The notes under the pieces were generated by a model that saw nothing but the letters and a program-made list of their open reading frames with translations, had not been told where the DNA came from and searched no databases. From contig CALUSQ010000005.1 of the NCBI GenBank assembly GCA_944323475.1, positions 1-64,000 of the forward strand: DNA of 64,000 nt. Direction: 5' to 3'. The position numbers and the translations under genes were made by a program. This DNA is from Candidatus Gastranaerophilales bacterium. Lineage in GTDB: Bacteria; Cyanobacteriota; Vampirovibrionia; Gastranaerophilales; Gastranaerophilaceae. This document shows, piece by piece, positions 41,242 through 51,950 of this stretch; position 1 is the first letter of the stretch; every line of letters begins with the position of its first letter.

Positions 41242-41595
41242 TTAATTATAGATTTTGATTTTAAAATTTTGTATAGGCTCTCCATTCAATAATTTTTTTT
41301 GATTGGAGAGCGTATTTTTTATAGAAAAAATCCATCCTGTTTTAGGATTAACAAATAAATAAAAAGCAGCTTTACTTTCCAATAATCTCTGTTGTGAATC
41401 AATTAATAACTCACCTTTATCTGATAGTTCAAAAATAGTAAAAGACAAAGGTGTAGTTAAATTACTGTCTAAATACCCGTCAAAAGGAGTATTTTTAAGA
41501 CGTGTTGTATCTCTAAAAACGGCTTGATCTTTATATGTAGTACACCATTGATATAGTTTTGTAATAATATTATCTATTTTGTCGTTTTGATTCAT
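41242..41595 (-). CDS. Small protein downstream of the GGDEF/HD-GYP gene
   Basis: 117 residues. Its start at 41595 overlaps the end of the upstream gene by 26 nt, so the two are co-expressed. The sequence is mixed alpha/beta (LSFTIFELSDKGELLIDSQQ, FYLFVNPKTGWIFSI) with no membrane segment. It may be a partner or regulator of the c-di-GMP enzyme (inference from coupling only). No family recognised. Confidence 0.6.
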   Translation of the reverse strand: MNQNDKIDNIITKLYQWCTTYKDQAVFRDTTRLKNTPFDGYLDSNLTTPLSFTIFELSDKGELLIDSQQRLLESKAAFYLFVNPKTGWIFSIKNTLSNQKKLLNGEPIQNFKIKIYN

Positions 41596-43495
41596 TTACA
41601 AGATCCACAAACTGTTCAACCAGTTTCTCATTCCATTTTTTACCTGCACCAAGTTTTATAATTTCAATTGCTTCGTCCTTAGAATGAGCAACTCGATATG
41701 GACGAGCTTGAGTAATTGCAAAATAGGAATCTACGAGCAATATAATTTGAGAAGAAATAGGAATACTAGAACCACTTAGCTGGTTAGGATACCCTGTACC
41801 ATCCCAGTTTTCATGATGTGCCTCAATTATTGGTATTATATCAGCAATATTTGTTATTGGCTGAAGAATCTTTCTAGCTGCAATCAAAGGATGTTCTTTG
41901 ATTTTTTGTTTTTCTTCTTCTGTTAATGGTTCTTTTTTATTTAAAATTTCATCAGGAATCATTAACTTGCCAACATCATACAACATTACAGCTATTTTTA
42001 ATTTATCTATATCCTCTTTAGCAAGTTCCATTTTTCTTGCAAGCTCAATAGCCATAGAAACTTTTGCTTTTGTTATTCCCCTTTTATAATGGCTATTGTA
42101 TGTTTGTGCAAGAGTATCAGCAACAGAGAACAAAGTAGATTTTGTTTCGCCTGTATCAATTGATTTGAGCTTTGAAGTAATTTCTTTTGCAATTTTATTA
42201 GGTATAGGTATTTTTTGTTTAGTAAGAATATCCATGAACGCACCAAATGCTACTTCATGCCATTCTGTTTCATCATCTACTGTCTTAGCGAGAGTAACTC
42301 TATTTCTTCCGTTAATTTTAGACTTATACATAGCTTGGTCAGCCATATCAAGAAGTTCATCAAGTTTTATAGAGTGTTCAGGGAAAGTTGCAACTCCAAT
42401 ACTTGCTGTAACATGTCCAATTGTGTCAAGCTCTTGTGCTTCTATCGCAGCACGAATTCTTTCCGCAGCAATCATAGCGCCCGATGAATCTACACCTGGT
42501 AATAGTACAGAAAACTCCTCACCACCCAATCTTGCAGGAATATCAATAGAACGAGCATTTTTCTTCAATATATCAGCTATTGTCCTAATAGCCAAATCCC
42601 CAAAAAAGTGTCCATATGTATCGTTAATTTTCTTTAAATAATCTAAGTCCAAACTAATTAATGAAAATGGCTGGTGCAACCGCTGTGCACGTTCTGCTTC
42701 TTTTTGAATAGCTTGATTAAAATAACGTCTATTATACAACTCAGTCAAAGAGTCAGTAACTGCTTCTTTCTTCAAATTCTCAAAAAGATTTGCAATTGTT
42801 ATAGCCATCTCAACTTGATTTGCAAAGAGAGTCAAAAAATTTAACTCTTTGTCATCTGCAGCCTCTCTCGAAGAAAAAACCATCATAACACCAAATGGTA
42901 TATTAGCTGGACAAAGTGGTATACATATTACATTTTTGCTTACACCTAATTTATTTATTTGATTGATATAATCTTCATTAAAATCATATAGAAGATTGTT
43001 AATAACATTTAAGTAATCAGAAGATTGAATAATTGTTTTTTCTTCAATAGCTCTTGTTATCAACATATTAGAGTCATATTTAAGATGATATTCATGTATA
43101 TCTATATTTTTTTCTGCAAGATATTGTTTAATTTTGACTAAAATAGGACTTTCTGAAAAAGCTTTAACTTTATAGTATTTCCCCTTTTCATCATTGCAAA
43201 CCTGTAAAATTGTACTGTTTATATAACCCATTTCACCATGTAAAGAATTAACCAATTTTTGCAAAACGGTAGATAATGGTTCAGAAGAATTCATCAATTC
43301 CCAAACGTGCTTCAATGTAAGAAAAGCCTTATTAGCCTGATCCAATTCTTGTGTACGTTGGACAATCTCTTTTTCAAGAGCAAGGTTTCTTTCATATACT
43401 TCAATAAATTCTTTTTTATTGTTAGAAATACTATATTCAATTTCATTAACTTTTTGAGTATAATCTCTAATTTTTTTAAAAAAGTCCATATTCAC
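41570..43495 (-). CDS. GAF-GGDEF-HD-GYP cyclic-di-GMP protein
   Basis: Predicted dual c-di-GMP protein, 641 residues. A coiled coil (1-60) leads to a GAF domain (about 75-230). The GGDEF domain (about 245-405) has an intact RLGGEEF active site near 323, and RSID five residues before it is the inhibitory I-site. An HD-GYP domain (about 440-640) contains HHENWDGTGYP, but the metal-binding HD of the HDxGK motif is replaced: LYDVGKLMIP has Tyr where His is expected. Cyclase activity is therefore likely and hydrolysis doubtful. The start at 43495 has weak upstream signals. Confidence 0.9.
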   Translation of the reverse strand: MNMDFFKKIRDYTQKVNEIEYSISNNKKEFIEVYERNLALEKEIVQRTQELDQANKAFLTLKHVWELMNSSEPLSTVLQKLVNSLHGEMGYINSTILQVCNDEKGKYYKVKAFSESPILVKIKQYLAEKNIDIHEYHLKYDSNMLITRAIEEKTIIQSSDYLNVINNLLYDFNEDYINQINKLGVSKNVICIPLCPANIPFGVMMVFSSREAADDKELNFLTLFANQVEMAITIANLFENLKKEAVTDSLTELYNRRYFNQAIQKEAERAQRLHQPFSLISLDLDYLKKINDTYGHFFGDLAIRTIADILKKNARSIDIPARLGGEEFSVLLPGVDSSGAMIAAERIRAAIEAQELDTIGHVTASIGVATFPEHSIKLDELLDMADQAMYKSKINGRNRVTLAKTVDDETEWHEVAFGAFMDILTKQKIPIPNKIAKEITSKLKSIDTGETKSTLFSVADTLAQTYNSHYKRGITKAKVSMAIELARKMELAKEDIDKLKIAVMLYDVGKLMIPDEILNKKEPLTEEEKQKIKEHPLIAARKILQPITNIADIIPIIEAHHENWDGTGYPNQLSGSSIPISSQIILLVDSYFAITQARPYRVAHSKDEAIEIIKLGAGKKWNEKLVEQFVDLVNESKRQNR

Positions 43496-45859: not shown

Positions 45860-47962
45860 ATGTCAAAAATATTATTGGTTTCAGACAATGAAACACAAAA
45901 AGATTTAATATCAAAAGCATTAACTAAATCACCAAATGCACTAATATGTTCTTTGGATGAGACAGCAATTATTAACTATGTCGAAAAAAGACAAGTTGCG
46001 ATGGTAATCATTGATGAAGAAGTAGAATCTCTTGATGCAATAATTCTGGTCAAAAAACTTCACTCAACAGCAATTAAAGAAAATATAGCTATAGCCGCAA
46101 TAGTAAAAAATGATACAGAAAATACTGATTTACTAAAACTGGCAAATGTATATGTAACAAAGCCAATAAATGAAAAAATTCTAACCTCGTGTATTACAGG
46201 AAGCTTAAAATTAAAAAAAGCAATTGATACACTTTCTTTAAATAACAGTGAGCTTGCAAAAAGTCTTTATCAGCTTGACGTTCTTTATAACACATCAACA
46301 CAGCTTGCAGGCTCTTTAGACAAACAAAAACTTATAGACATTATGATTGATGGGCTTGAAAAAAGTCTCAGCTTTTCTTTATCATATGTTCTGGTTTTTA
46401 ATGATGAACACAACATAGAATTAATAATAAATTCACTTTATGGAATATCACCAAGACTTGAACATTCATTGAAACTCAGAGCAATATTAAGCTATAAAGC
46501 ACTATTTGACAAAAAAAGGATTCCATACGATATAAATGTCAATGAAATTAAAGTCATAAAAAACATCAAACATCCGATTGAAGAATATGATTTAAATATA
46601 CTCAAGTTTGATAATTTATTTGCACCAATTAATATTGGAGAAAAATTCTTTGGTCTCATTGAAGTATTTAGAGAAAACGACTTTACGCAAGAAGATACAA
46701 CTTGTTTTCAAACACTTGCCAGACAGGTTTCTTTACCTTTAGAAAATGCCGCATTATATGAAGAAATTAAAAACACAAACACCAAGCTAGAAAAGTTGGA
46801 AAGATTAAAATCAGAGTTTATCTCAATTGTTTCACATGAACTTAGAACACCACTCACAGCAATTAAAAATTCACTTGAAATTTGTCTTAGCGGCAAAGCA
46901 GGTGAAGTAAATGCCATTACTGATAAATTTTTAAATATGGCAAAAAGAAATGTAACAAGACTATCTGGCATTATAAATGATTTGCTCGACCTTTCAAAAG
47001 TTGAAGCGGGTAAAATGGATTTTAAATTTGAAAAAACAAATATAAATATCCCTGTTGAATTTATTAAAAATACTTTTGAAAACGTTGCTAAAGAAAAAAA
47101 TATAGAACTTATTCTGGAAAAAGAAAATGACATATCTCTTGCTTATATTGATACACAAAGAATCGAACAGGTTATGTCTAATCTTGTATCCAATGCTATA
47201 AAATTTACTAATGAAAATGGAAAAATCAAAATCAAAACAGAGAATATTAGAGAAAATGATTTGGACAAATCAATACTTCTTGGTGCACAAAATCCTGTTT
47301 TTTATGAAAACTATATCAAAGTTTCTGTAAGTGATAGCGGTATAGGGATTGCACCTGAAGATCTCAAGAAAGTTTTTGATCAATTTCAACAAATAGAAAA
47401 TTCATTGAACAGAAAAAATGGGGGCACAGGACTAGGACTTCCAATTGCCAAGCAATTAATTGAAGCTCACAAAGGATTTATTTGGGTCGAAAGTGAACTT
47501 GACAGAGGCACAACATTTTCTTTCGCAATTCCAGTAATGAGCGAAAAAGAAAAATTTATAACAGATTTAGAAAAAGAAACACTAAAAGCAAAAACCTGTT
47601 CTCAAAGTTTGCTTCTCGTATTAATAGAAGAAAAAAAAGAAGAACAAAATTCTTTTATCGATGCAATAAAACAAGAAAAAATATCAATAATAAGAAAAAC
47701 CTCAAATACCAAAGAAGTATATTATCTAGAAGAAAACAAAAATTATCTTGCTATAATGCTACCGGAAGCTGATAAATTTGCTCAAAGTTTTATAGAAAAG
47801 AAAATTGAAAGTATATTACATAATGAATCAGAAGAAACACAGTCTGAAAAATATGCTATATTGTATTCAACAGTACTATTTCCTGACAATGCACAAGATG
47901 CAACAGAATTGATGGAAAAAGCAAAAGATTTATTAAAAAACAAGGTGGAGGCATTATTATAA
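45860..47962 (+). CDS. Hybrid sensor histidine kinase with receiver-like, GAF and GGDEF-like domains
   Basis: 700 residues. Residues 1-120 have a receiver fold, but the usual acidic pair reads SDNE and the phospho-acceptor strand reads MVIIDEE, so phosphorylation is uncertain. A GAF domain fills about 140-300. The HisKA helix follows with SHELRTPLTAIKN (phospho-His near 326). HATPase_c covers about 420-565 with N box SNLVSNAIKFT, DSGIGI and GGTGLGLPIAK. The last 125 residues look like a GGDEF-fold domain with the signature erased: YLAIMLPEAD stands for FAVLLPxxD and SEKYAILYSTVLFPDNA for the SIG-type strand. First of a tight three-gene set. Confidence 0.85.
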   Translation: MSKILLVSDNETQKDLISKALTKSPNALICSLDETAIINYVEKRQVAMVIIDEEVESLDAIILVKKLHSTAIKENIAIAAIVKNDTENTDLLKLANVYVTKPINEKILTSCITGSLKLKKAIDTLSLNNSELAKSLYQLDVLYNTSTQLAGSLDKQKLIDIMIDGLEKSLSFSLSYVLVFNDEHNIELIINSLYGISPRLEHSLKLRAILSYKALFDKKRIPYDINVNEIKVIKNIKHPIEEYDLNILKFDNLFAPINIGEKFFGLIEVFRENDFTQEDTTCFQTLARQVSLPLENAALYEEIKNTNTKLEKLERLKSEFISIVSHELRTPLTAIKNSLEICLSGKAGEVNAITDKFLNMAKRNVTRLSGIINDLLDLSKVEAGKMDFKFEKTNINIPVEFIKNTFENVAKEKNIELILEKENDISLAYIDTQRIEQVMSNLVSNAIKFTNENGKIKIKTENIRENDLDKSILLGAQNPVFYENYIKVSVSDSGIGIAPEDLKKVFDQFQQIENSLNRKNGGTGLGLPIAKQLIEAHKGFIWVESELDRGTTFSFAIPVMSEKEKFITDLEKETLKAKTCSQSLLLVLIEEKKEEQNSFIDAIKQEKISIIRKTSNTKEVYYLEENKNYLAIMLPEADKFAQSFIEKKIESILHNESEETQSEKYAILYSTVLFPDNAQDATELMEKAKDLLKNKVEALL

Positions 47963-48337
47963 ATGAGTAATACAAAAAAAATTCTTATTGTAGATGATGA
48001 ACAGGATATAGTAGAGACCTTAAAATTTATGTTAGAAGCTCAAGGCTATGAATGTTTCTGTGCATATGATGGTGAAACAGGCCTCAATATGGCAAAAGAA
48101 ATTCTTCCTGATTTAATGATCCTTGATGTTATGATGCCCAAAATTAACGGCTACAAAATAAGCCGTCTTTTAAAATATGATAATAAATACAAAAATATAC
48201 CAATAATAATGGTAACAGCACGTTCGCAAGAAGATGATAAACTCATCGGTCAAGAAACCGGCGCTAATGAATATATAACAAAACCTTTTGAACTTGATGA
48301 AGTTATTAATAAAGTAAAAGAATATCTGGAAGACTAA
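47963..48337 (+). CDS. Stand-alone CheY-like response regulator
   Basis: 124-residue receiver with acidic residues in VDDEQD, phospho-acceptor Asp55 (LDVMMPKING), the TARS switch and conserved Lys in YITKPFE. No output domain. The ATG follows the kinase stop directly (TAAATG), so it is almost certainly the kinase partner, probably signalling to the ATPase encoded 2 nt downstream. Confidence 0.92.
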   Translation: MSNTKKILIVDDEQDIVETLKFMLEAQGYECFCAYDGETGLNMAKEILPDLMILDVMMPKINGYKISRLLKYDNKYKNIPIIMVTARSQEDDKLIGQETGANEYITKPFELDEVINKVKEYLED

Positions 48338-48339
48338 TA

Positions 48340-49734
48340 ATGGAGTTTGTTAGAAACAAAACACTAGAAAAATTAAAATATGACCTCGTAAGAGACAACA
48401 TTATCAAATACGAGGACTTAGAAACTGCTGAACAAGTAGCAGCAGCACAAAATGTAAATCTTGGACAAGTTCTTATTTCATCAGGAATAATTAGTGAGGA
48501 CCGACTTCTCAAATTTTTGGAAAGTAAACTCCATATACCGTATGTTAATCTAGATGACTATTCTCTTGATAAAAAATGTCTAAGCTATATAAACTTTAAC
48601 AATGCTCAAAAATACAAAGTTATACCTCTATTTGAAATTGAAGGAATCTTAACTGTTGCAATGTCTGATCCATTGGATTTATTTGCAATAGACAAAATAG
48701 TAGAGGATGCAAAATGTGAAATAGAACCTGTTATTTCATCTGAAAATGCTGTTATAAAAAAGATTGAAGAATATTATCAAAGTAGTAGTTCTGTTGGACA
48801 GATTTTTATTGATGAAAACAAACCCAAATATGATTGGCGTGAAGTTTTGAACAATGAAAACCTCTCATCTGGGCTATCTGATGAACACATACATAAACTT
48901 ATACGAGCTATTTTAAAACAAGCAATATCTGACGGCATCCATGAACTTTTCTTTGAACATATTCCAAACGGATTAAGCGTAACATTTAGAAAAGACTCTC
49001 AAAATGTTTCAACAGGTGAAATACCTTCTATTCTTGTATCAGCATTTATTGCAAAACTTAAAACACTTTCAAATCTAGATCCAACTGTATCAGAATTGCC
49101 GCAGCTAGGCAAACTGAGTTTTAAAGTTGATGAAATGGCTCTTATTGCAAGCATCTCTGCCTTTCCGACAATCCATGGAGAAAGAATTTCTATAAAAATA
49201 TATAAACCTCCAAAATCTTTACAAGAAACAGGAATGGATACAAAAAAAATAAATACAATTAGAAATTCAATGGAAAACCCTGGGATTATACTTGTCTGTG
49301 GCTCAGGCTTAAGTGGTAAAACACATCTTATTTATTCAATATTGTCCGATATAGCAACAAAAGACAAAAATGTTATGACAATTGAATCTATAACAAAATA
49401 TAATCTTGAAAATGTCAATCAATGCGAATTGAATGAGCACATAGGATTCAATCTAGATAAAGCTATGAGATTTATAGAGTTCCAATCACCTGATATTTTA
49501 TATTTTGAAGGTATAAATACAAAAGAAGGCTTAGATTACTTCACGTCTTTGGTATTCAAAAATAAAATTCTTATTACAGAATTTTTAGCAGAAAATATTG
49601 CGGATTTAATGAAAAAACTTTCTATAACAGACTTTTCTATGTTTAAATCAATGTTAACCTGCTTAATATTTATTCACAGTAAAGATAGTATTGAAGTCTT
49701 TGATAAAAAAGCTCTCGAAAAATATTTTAGTTAA
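48340..49734 (+). CDS. Divergent GspE/PilB-type ATPase with an MshEN-like N-terminus
   Basis: 464 residues. The N-terminal MshEN-like part (about 1-145) contains NLGQVLISSGIISEDRLLKF and KLHIPYVNL, the Leu-rich pattern of c-di-GMP-binding T2SSE_N domains. The ATPase core (about 165-464) keeps Walker A GSGLSGKTH and GERISIKIYKP (the TxxGE strand). The Walker B/Asp box reads SPDILYFEGINTKEG in place of DPDxxxxGEIRD. It is shorter than PilB (about 570) and lacks the zinc tetracysteine. Motor function may be reduced or altered. It follows the response regulator by 2 nt. Confidence 0.8.
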   Translation: MEFVRNKTLEKLKYDLVRDNIIKYEDLETAEQVAAAQNVNLGQVLISSGIISEDRLLKFLESKLHIPYVNLDDYSLDKKCLSYINFNNAQKYKVIPLFEIEGILTVAMSDPLDLFAIDKIVEDAKCEIEPVISSENAVIKKIEEYYQSSSSVGQIFIDENKPKYDWREVLNNENLSSGLSDEHIHKLIRAILKQAISDGIHELFFEHIPNGLSVTFRKDSQNVSTGEIPSILVSAFIAKLKTLSNLDPTVSELPQLGKLSFKVDEMALIASISAFPTIHGERISIKIYKPPKSLQETGMDTKKINTIRNSMENPGIILVCGSGLSGKTHLIYSILSDIATKDKNVMTIESITKYNLENVNQCELNEHIGFNLDKAMRFIEFQSPDILYFEGINTKEGLDYFTSLVFKNKILITEFLAENIADLMKKLSITDFSMFKSMLTCLIFIHSKDSIEVFDKKALEKYFS

Positions 49735-49841
49735 AATTTTGTAAAATTATATTAACAATTCCTGTAATTCGGTAAATTCTGATGAAAAAAAAATGTTTAT
49801 AAGTATATAGGAAACCGAAGGTAAAAAAGGAATATTTAATT

Positions 49842-50297
49842 TTGGCAGTTGAAAAGGTAACAATTCAGCAGGCTGCAGGTGACTTATTAAAAGACAAAGG
49901 AACAGAAAGCACAGCTGATACATATAGTTTTAATGGTTCAAATATAAATCCGTTTGAAGCATCAATTTCAAAATTGCAAAAAAATGGAATTATTAAGCAA
50001 CCTGTTCAAAAGAAGAATAAAAGCAAACTATTGTTTGGCAACAATATAATTCAAGAACCTGAAGCAAAAAAGGAAAAGATAAATTTTGAAGTACCTAAAG
50101 CAGAAAACAAATATAATCTAAATACGCTTTATAATTACTTTAAAAACGTTAAATATGGAATTGAACAGTTTGACGCAGCTTCTGCACCTTATGTAAAACA
50201 AGCTTTAGGCCATCTACCAGATAAAGATAGTTTATATGCAGCAGTAGACTCTAATAAAAGGATTGCGGCAATATTACTCGAAGCTAATTTATTATAA
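49842..50297 (+). CDS. Unknown protein between the ATPase and the HD protein
   Basis: 151 residues with a TTG start and AAAAGGAA upstream at a spacing of about 10. The N-terminal half is polar and probably disordered (TYSFNGSNINPF, then Lys-rich). The C-terminal half (about 90-151) is helical (LYNYFKNVKYGIEQFDAASAP, split by a turn). No family recognised. 107 nt separate it from the ATPase gene and 33 nt from the HD gene. Confidence 0.6.
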   Translation: MAVEKVTIQQAAGDLLKDKGTESTADTYSFNGSNINPFEASISKLQKNGIIKQPVQKKNKSKLLFGNNIIQEPEAKKEKINFEVPKAENKYNLNTLYNYFKNVKYGIEQFDAASAPYVKQALGHLPDKDSLYAAVDSNKRIAAILLEANLL

Positions 50298-50330
50298 ATT
50301 AAAAAAAAGCAAATAGGACATGGATTAGGA

Positions 50331-50882
50331 ATGAAAGAAATAGCAAAAGACGTATTACACTACGAGAATTTAAAAACTATTAAATATACTCACTTAGCAA
50401 CAACTATTGCGTATGCAAGAGCAATAGGAGAAGAATTAGGATACAATGAAAATCAACTTACAGTAATGCAAGTCGGTGCAGCATTACATGATGTAGGAAA
50501 ATCATTGATTCCACCTGCTATTTTAAACAAAAAAGGCAGATTAACAGACGAAGAAAGAAAAATTGTGAACCTTCATTCAGTATTGGGCTATGAACTATTA
50601 AAATCATTAGGCTATGGTGTAAACGTTGCAGAAATCGCAAGAGACCACCATAATCCGATGTCAAAAAATCCTATGGCACAAATCGTAAGAGCCGCTGATA
50701 TCTACTCTGCAATGAGAGAAGAACGTTCTTACAAAAAAGCCAAATCTCATGAAGAAGCAATGGAAGTTTTAAAATCAGCTAGAGTACCTCAACAGATTTT
50801 GAACGCACTTGATAAAAGATACGGAAAAAAGACATTCACGAAACCTATTCAAAGCTTTTCAATTCGTACTGCAGTTGCTTAA
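50331..50882 (+). CDS. HD-domain phosphohydrolase (HD-GYP-like, GYP motif lost)
   Basis: 183 residues. The metal motif HDVGKSLIPPAIL is intact near residue 58, and LHSVLGYELLKSLGY supplies the next His. Where HD-GYP enzymes have HHExxDGxGYP this protein reads HHNPMSKNP, followed by RAADIYSAMREERSYK. It may hydrolyse c-di-GMP with altered specificity, another (oligo)nucleotide, or none. Its end overlaps the convergent TPR gene by 38 nt. It probably belongs with the signalling genes upstream. Confidence 0.85.
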   Translation: MKEIAKDVLHYENLKTIKYTHLATTIAYARAIGEELGYNENQLTVMQVGAALHDVGKSLIPPAILNKKGRLTDEERKIVNLHSVLGYELLKSLGYGVNVAEIARDHHNPMSKNPMAQIVRAADIYSAMREERSYKKAKSHEEAMEVLKSARVPQQILNALDKRYGKKTFTKPIQSFSIRTAVA

Positions 50883-51768
50883 GCTCTGTTGAAAGAGTTT
50901 CATAGTTATTCATAGCCTCCTTAAGGTGATATTTATATTGTTCAATATCTCCAGTCTGTTTATATACATGAGCAATTGTATAATTAACCTCACCATTATA
51001 AGGATTGTTCATAATAGCAGTTTTTAGTATTTCAAGTGCTTGAGAAAAATCATTTTCTTTTGCATAAATTTTTGAAAGAACAATATATGCATTATCATCC
51101 TTTGGATTCAATTCTAGTGTTTTTCTAAGACAATCTTTGGCATTTTCTAAATAGCCTTGTTCAAAATATATTGAACCAAGATTAAAATAAGCCCAACTGT
51201 AATCAGGAGAAAGTTCCAAAACTTTTTCATAATGTTCAATACAATCTTTTCTTTCTCCAATTTTGTCTAACTCATAAGCAAGATAGAAATGTGCAAGATG
51301 GTCGTTAGGATTTAATTTCAATGCAACATTAAGACATTTTATCGCCAAATCATGCTCATTTAACTTTGAATACAAATAGCCTAAATTAAAGTAACTGTTC
51401 TCATCATCATTTTCAAGCTGTAAAACTCTTTTAAAAAACGGTATAGCTTTATCAAATTCACCCTTTTGTAAATAAGCATAACCAAGATTATACAAAAAGT
51501 CAGGTTCATCAGGATTTATATTCAAAGCATTTTGATAAGAAACAATAGCTTTATCAAACTGCTTTAGGTTTTCTAATACAATTCCAGCATTATAATGCAA
51601 ACGAGAATCTTCAGGAAATCTTTTTAGTAAATAATATAGCTGTTTTAAAGCCTCTTCATTATATCCATTTTCCATAAACTCAATAGCAAGCTCTCTTCTT
51701 GTTTTAAAATCAGTCGGGTCGCTTTCTAAACGGTTATTAAGTTCATTAATTTTTTCAAGATTGTCCAT
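50845..51768 (-). CDS. Tetratricopeptide-repeat protein
   Basis: About 307 residues made almost entirely of eight or so TPR units. Typical matches include LHYNAGIVLENLKQFDKAI, FLYNLGYAYLQKGEFDKA, AYFNLGSIYFEQGYLENA and AYIVLSKIYAKENDFSQA. Cytoplasmic, a protein-interaction scaffold; no signal peptide or enzyme domain. The start used is ATG 51768 (MDNLEKI); an ATG five codons earlier is equally weak in ribosome-binding signal. Confidence 0.87.
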   Translation of the reverse strand: MDNLEKINELNNRLESDPTDFKTRRELAIEFMENGYNEEALKQLYYLLKRFPEDSRLHYNAGIVLENLKQFDKAIVSYQNALNINPDEPDFLYNLGYAYLQKGEFDKAIPFFKRVLQLENDDENSYFNLGYLYSKLNEHDLAIKCLNVALKLNPNDHLAHFYLAYELDKIGERKDCIEHYEKVLELSPDYSWAYFNLGSIYFEQGYLENAKDCLRKTLELNPKDDNAYIVLSKIYAKENDFSQALEILKTAIMNNPYNGEVNYTIAHVYKQTGDIEQYKYHLKEAMNNYETLSTELKQLQYELKSFE

Positions 51769-51950
51769 AAATATTAATCTCATTTTCTTTTAAATATCAA
51801 ATTAAATATATAATTTCATAACAAAATATTTTGAAAAAGCCAAATTATCTAAAGATTTTTATCTTTAAATGTACAATAATTAATATAATATTGTATATTT
51901 CAATATTATACAAAAAATTCAAAATTGCTAAAATGCATAATTTTTATAAC

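Follow-up and report, generated by a model that had tools for sequence, protein, structure and literature searches.

Gene content of the locus and the kinase-receiver pair

The window analysed here is a 64,000-nt stretch on contig 5 of a Gastranaerophilales genome (1.84 Mb in 45 contigs). This order consists of cyanobacterial relatives that are common in the gut and for the most part uncultured. Between positions 45860 and 50882 lie five ORFs, all read from the plus strand. Their common direction and tight spacing, already described in an initial annotation, were confirmed from the sequence: the kinase gene ends at 47962 and the receiver gene starts at 47963 (0 nt between), while the receiver gene ends at 48337 and the ATPase-like gene starts at 48340 (2 nt between). 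The domains named there were likewise recovered by Pfam as HisKA/HATPase, receiver, T2SSE plus MshEN, and HD. The features, with the evidence for each, are as follows:

45860..47962, + strand: sensor histidine kinase, 700 aa (Pfam, invariant residues, profile-profile comparison, AF2/Foldseek, hydropathy)
47963..48337, + strand: single-domain response regulator, 124 aa, phospho-acceptor D55 (Pfam PF00072, E 3e-28)
48340..49734, + strand: PilB-derived pseudo-ATPase, 464 aa, hereafter pseudo-PilB (T2SSE and MshEN matches, PilB match in the PDB, motif decay, pN/pS)
49842..50297, + strand: N-terminal half of a split gene, fast evolving, 151 aa (fused to the HD half in congeners)
50331..50882, + strand: HD-domain half of the split gene, HD-GYP-like (PF13487, 72 bits)

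A scan of the locus for promoters and terminators gave results no better than those from shuffled sequences. On the opposite strand, at 41570-43495, lies a GAF-GGDEF-HD-GYP protein whose GGEEF and HHExxDGTGYP motifs are intact, a likely c-di-GMP enzyme in the vicinity.

The kinase is composed of a degenerate N-terminal receiver (residues ~1-122) and a GAF-like region (~150-296), both of which are weak Pfam matches, followed by HisKA (H326) and HATPase_c domains and a C-terminal tail (~562-700). Hydropathy gave no obvious membrane segment. The H, N and G-box residues of the kinase are invariant in 25 orthologues, as are D11, D12, D55, T85, Y104 and K107 of the receiver in 28; the catalytic residues of a two-component pair are thus intact on both sides. 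To this extent the phosphorelay proposed in the initial annotation holds, whereas its role in motor or pilus control is something that we infer.

The tail, present in 16 of the 26 kinases examined, was not identified by a plain Pfam scan, which produced a match in a single member out of 10 (E 0.041). Comparison by hhalign with a GGDEF profile, itself holding just three sequences, yielded P 2.5e-5, against 0.28-0.86 for 10 column shuffles, and a Foldseek search of the PDB with the AF2 model of the tail (pLDDT 86) ranked GGDEF structures first (4urq, E 7.6e-6, TM 0.69). Profile and predicted structure agree on a GGDEF fold. When the tail is aligned with the GGDEF protein encoded in the window, the GG(D/E)EF active site and the RxxD I-site prove to be replaced, making this a degenerate GGDEF-like domain. 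Its nearest published analogue is the tail of SgmT, a hybrid kinase of Myxococcus (PMC3509222) that likewise combines a GAF sensor, a histidine kinase and a C-terminal degenerate GGDEF. SgmT differs in having an intact I-site, in carrying its receiver C-terminal to the kinase and in signalling to a DNA-binding regulator; the kinase described here has no recognisable GGDEF or RxxD I-site, and its receiver is N-terminal.

Conservation and linkage

The two downstream ORFs (49842-50882) derive from a single ancestral gene, some 325 codons long, that is interrupted by an in-frame TAA at 50295-50297; in congeners both align to one protein of 325 aa. Fused copies occur in 12 congeners, and in 10 genomes, that of the window among them, a stop or a frame change divides the gene. 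The halves are moreover in different frames in several congeners, and the HD half begins at a start of its own and carries an N-terminal extension. The 151-aa ORF has no Pfam or NCBIfam match. The HD half retains, by inspection, the HD..HH..D metal ligands; it lacks the HHExxDGxGYP signature of HD-GYP proteins, the GYP loop being replaced by HHNPMSKNP. The gene is confined to the genus, outside of which only generic HD similarity is found, and the fused form lies away from pseudo-PilB in nine congeners. Being restricted to the genus and often unlinked, the HD protein was rejected as a member of the system, and the suggestion that it trims a nucleotide signal within that system is not supported either. 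An anti-phage role was also rejected, PADLOC returning only generic receiver/HD similarity. The 3' end of the HD gene overlaps by 38 nt that of a TPR protein gene on the opposite strand (50845-51783), a layout kept in congeners.

Conservation was examined in 292 genomes of the phylum, 131 of them in the order Gastranaerophilales. The pseudo-PilB gene was found in 129 of these 131 and not outside the order within this sample. Matches at the same threshold from outside the class, in 4 genomes, are 26-28% identical and resemble ordinary PilB. A first survey of relatives had given at least one match per genome, some of these being true PilB only. The order kinase-receiver-pseudo-PilB occurs in all 22 loci of the genus. 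Among 33 loci from other genera and families, all three genes are adjacent in 18, a single gene on the opposite strand separates kinase from receiver in 4, and the kinase lies at a greater distance in 1; 2 show receiver and pseudo-PilB only and 6 pseudo-PilB alone, and contig ends cut the remaining 2. An arrangement that recurs in this way is not due to chance. The conserved unit is thus made up of kinase, receiver and pseudo-PilB. Of the five-gene order initially put forward, these three are conserved across the order Gastranaerophilales, whereas the last two, genus-only and often unlinked, lie outside the unit.

The genes flanking the unit differ from genus to genus. Most are housekeeping genes, such as those identified by inspection as ATP synthase beta/epsilon, GlmS and AroF-like; pilin-like genes are scattered among them, and across the surveyed loci no pilus gene is a conserved neighbour. 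A conserved neighbourhood link to pilus genes was rejected on these grounds.

In six genomes from two families (G036, G047, G050, G053, G055, G056) pseudo-PilB is unlinked, yet the genome encodes elsewhere both an orthologue of the receiver, at 66-69% identity, and the sensor region of the kinase; kinase and receiver lie side by side in the four loci that were re-read. Two genomes, G198 (99% complete) and G319 (97%), are without pseudo-PilB, receiver orthologue and kinase sensor, their best receiver matches reaching only 37-43% identity and lying in longer frames. Their congeners (G218/G306 and G254/G309) carry all three genes. Because the genes are adjacent in these congeners, each joint absence could correspond to one missing MAG contig; in the comparison made to look for a clean deletion, the flanks were not syntenic. 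More weight therefore attaches to the unlinked copies that have been retained than to these absences. In two fragmented assemblies (G051 and G052) the kinase is present without receiver or pseudo-PilB.

Adjacent genes are inherited together, and the three could simply be operon neighbours having no functional tie beyond co-transcription. We regard this as very improbable, since all three are kept though unlinked in six genomes and since the surrounding gene order is otherwise scrambled. Altogether, the evolutionary pattern makes a coupling between the receiver and pseudo-PilB, taken by itself, likely.

Decay and selection in the PilB-derived protein

Homology of pseudo-PilB to PilB/GspE extends over an MshEN-fold N-domain (residues 1-150), an N2 domain and a decayed RecA-like core (PF00437, 102.9 bits), and PilB in the PDB is matched with E 1e-46 over residues 13-395. 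The score against the PilB equivalog model TIGR02538 (197 bits) is below the cut-off of 675.65; the true PilB of the genome also falls under it (543.5 bits) but matches the full length of the model. A structure model of the whole protein, of modest confidence (pLDDT 69.6, pTM 0.44), adds little beyond the sequence.

Motifs were compared in 36 orthologues. The Asp box, T-x-E-D-P-V-E in PilB, reads E-S-x-x-K-Y, with the aspartate changed to serine in 35 of them, and the His box is lost. The zinc-binding C-terminal region is absent, the protein ending roughly 100 residues before PilB does. Walker A is kept in 32 of the 36 and lost in four (L055 and three loci of family f6), while E349 and E390 are invariant in all. 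In the f6 orthologues (L067, L069, L070) both glutamates persist although Walker A is gone, which argues that these residues are conserved for a non-catalytic reason. The prevalence of Walker A in turn suggests that nucleotide binding may matter in most orthologues.

From these changes, pseudo-PilB appears no longer to work as a motor. One could alternatively view it as an active if divergent ATPase, a second assembly motor beside PilB that is switched on by the phosphorylated receiver. Second assembly ATPases do exist, TfpB being an example (PMC11656802), and the Walker A and glutamate counts would fit. We consider this reading unlikely, given the Asp-box and His-box changes, the missing zinc-binding region with its early end, and the loss of Walker A in one family and in L055. 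TfpB resembles pseudo-PilB in being a PilB paralogue that accompanies the main PilB; it differs in contributing to pilus extension as an ATPase, whereas the paralogue described here is without conserved catalytic elements. Of the initial proposal that the receiver gates a degenerate PilB-like ATPase, we keep the coupling of the receiver to a degenerate PilB-like protein; with its catalytic machinery decayed, we doubt that an ATPase activity is what the receiver gates.

Loss of motor residues has not been accompanied by relaxed constraint. Median pN/pS within the genus is 0.115 for the whole protein and lowest, 0.072, in the N-domain, these values being rough because pS is near saturation. Across the order the N-domain is 46-95% identical to that of the window, compared to 19-23% for canonical PilB. 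Judged from these figures, pseudo-PilB is not a pseudogene and its N-domain is under strong purifying selection.

The N-domain matches the MshEN model, as the initial annotation had predicted (PF05157, 62.6 bits against a cut-off of 23.1, residues 65-150). Binding of c-di-GMP, which it had also proposed, was not supported. The MshEN c-di-GMP motif consists of two 24-residue RLGxx...Q motifs, and XpsE has lost binding (PMC5013675). In pseudo-PilB both RLG motifs are altered: motif I starts with KLK, its last glutamine is A or S, and R(L/I)G is absent from it in all 36 orthologues, the RLG arginine and glycine and the glutamines being replaced. The c-di-GMP-motif model NF053729 gives 16-28 bits in six orthologues, under its cut-off of 38, and 61.4 in true PilB. 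Since imperfect motifs may still bind the nucleotide (PMC5013675), failure of the model is not proof against binding. With MshE/PilB ATPases of the MshEN type (PMC5013675) the protein thus shares an MshEN-fold N-domain and a T2SSE core, differing from them in the loss of the c-di-GMP motif, as in XpsE, and in its decayed catalytic core.

These results bear on the model that accompanied the initial annotation, a c-di-GMP-gated motor whose signal is trimmed by the HD enzyme. The MshEN fold, the GGDEF/HD-GYP protein at 41570-43495 and the metal ligands of the HD half could be cited for it. With the motif I residues replaced, the motif model failed by pseudo-PilB and passed by true PilB, and the HD gene confined to the genus, it is hardly credible, and the c-di-GMP-gated motor was rejected. 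Going by the motif scores, c-di-GMP sensing, if any, is more likely to take place at the true PilB.

A possible route to type IV pilus control

True PilB, PilC and a secretin are encoded elsewhere in the host genome, in a row within a pilus cluster on contig 8 (L085:3836-9196), and nearly all module-carrying genomes also show a second, PilB-length match. A search of 8 genomes from the family detected PilM_2 in none; PilM was accordingly rejected as a docking partner, and the cytoplasmic platform may differ from that of textbook type IVa pili. The genomes G198 and G319 retain true PilB, PilC and PilT-like genes, implying that the module is accessory to the pilus.

We propose that a soluble kinase, equipped with a GAF-like sensor and the degenerate GGDEF-like tail, phosphorylates Asp55 of the receiver, as its intact catalytic residues would permit. 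The receiver would then bind the pseudo-ATPase, most likely through the conserved MshEN-fold N-domain. The latter would serve as an adaptor or decoy, docking where PilB docks, whether at the PilC-type platform or as a subunit of rings shared with true PilB, and would thereby raise or lower type IV pilus assembly on the kinase's signal. Pseudo-PilB would thus probably be an accessory regulator of type IV pili, the pilus being its presumed target, and the module would probably switch the real pilus machinery rather than power it. For the model as a whole, a three-component module with a pseudo-ATPase output acting on type IV pilus assembly, we see the chances as evenly balanced.

The target could also lie outside the pilus. 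The module would then regulate another process, exopolysaccharide or some other envelope function, with the PilB-like fold serving only as a scaffold on which the receiver docks. In its favour, pilus genes are missing from the conserved neighbourhood, PilB, PilC and PilT-like genes are retained in genomes that lack the module, and in Myxococcus PilB acts as a signalling protein for exopolysaccharide (PMC5544727). Set against this, the protein descends from PilB and has kept a PilB-type N-domain, which is most simply read as docking on the pilus platform, and the second PilB-length match accompanies the module nearly everywhere. We find a non-pilus target rather doubtful.

Regulation through PilB-family proteins has precedents, and the docking step of the pilus model resembles several. 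In Xanthomonas oryzae the single-domain receiver EmvR, on binding to PilB, reduces the ATPase activity of the latter by about 40% (PMC11973254). A kinase-fed single-domain response regulator acting by binding on a PilB-family protein, as predicted here, is common to both cases; EmvR is an orphan and its target an active PilB, whereas the present genes form a dedicated, conserved set with a degenerate paralogue. Regulators, PilZ among them, are known to dock on the N-domains of PilB (PMC11656802). In the simplest model, pseudo-PilB would offer a surface of this kind to its dedicated receiver and then compete with the true PilB or join it. FimX, which works with PilB in the PdeK-PdeR-FimX system (PMC11656802), similarly employs a degenerate receiver and GGDEF as regulatory parts in PilB control and has a two-component input. 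The present module differs in lacking an EAL domain, in carrying its degenerate domains on a kinase that retains its catalytic residues, and in having a paralogue of PilB as its output. A literature search found no description of the module itself. We tentatively suggest that it typifies a conserved two-component class in which a pseudo-ATPase descended from the pilus assembly motor is the dedicated output, the receiver controlling pilus assembly by way of a dead subunit that docks on the live one or co-assembles with it.

The module would represent a near-universal signalling system of the order, with a testable target. If the model is true, a phosphorelay that acts on a secretion-type motor by means of a pseudo-ATPase would be an unusual way of regulating it, and setting the module beside EmvR-PilB could reveal how generally PilB-family proteins come under the control of receivers. 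As a separate observation, pilin-like genes are present near pseudo-PilB in six loci from several genera (L054, L058, L059, L073, L079 and L081), in genomes that are pilin-rich overall.
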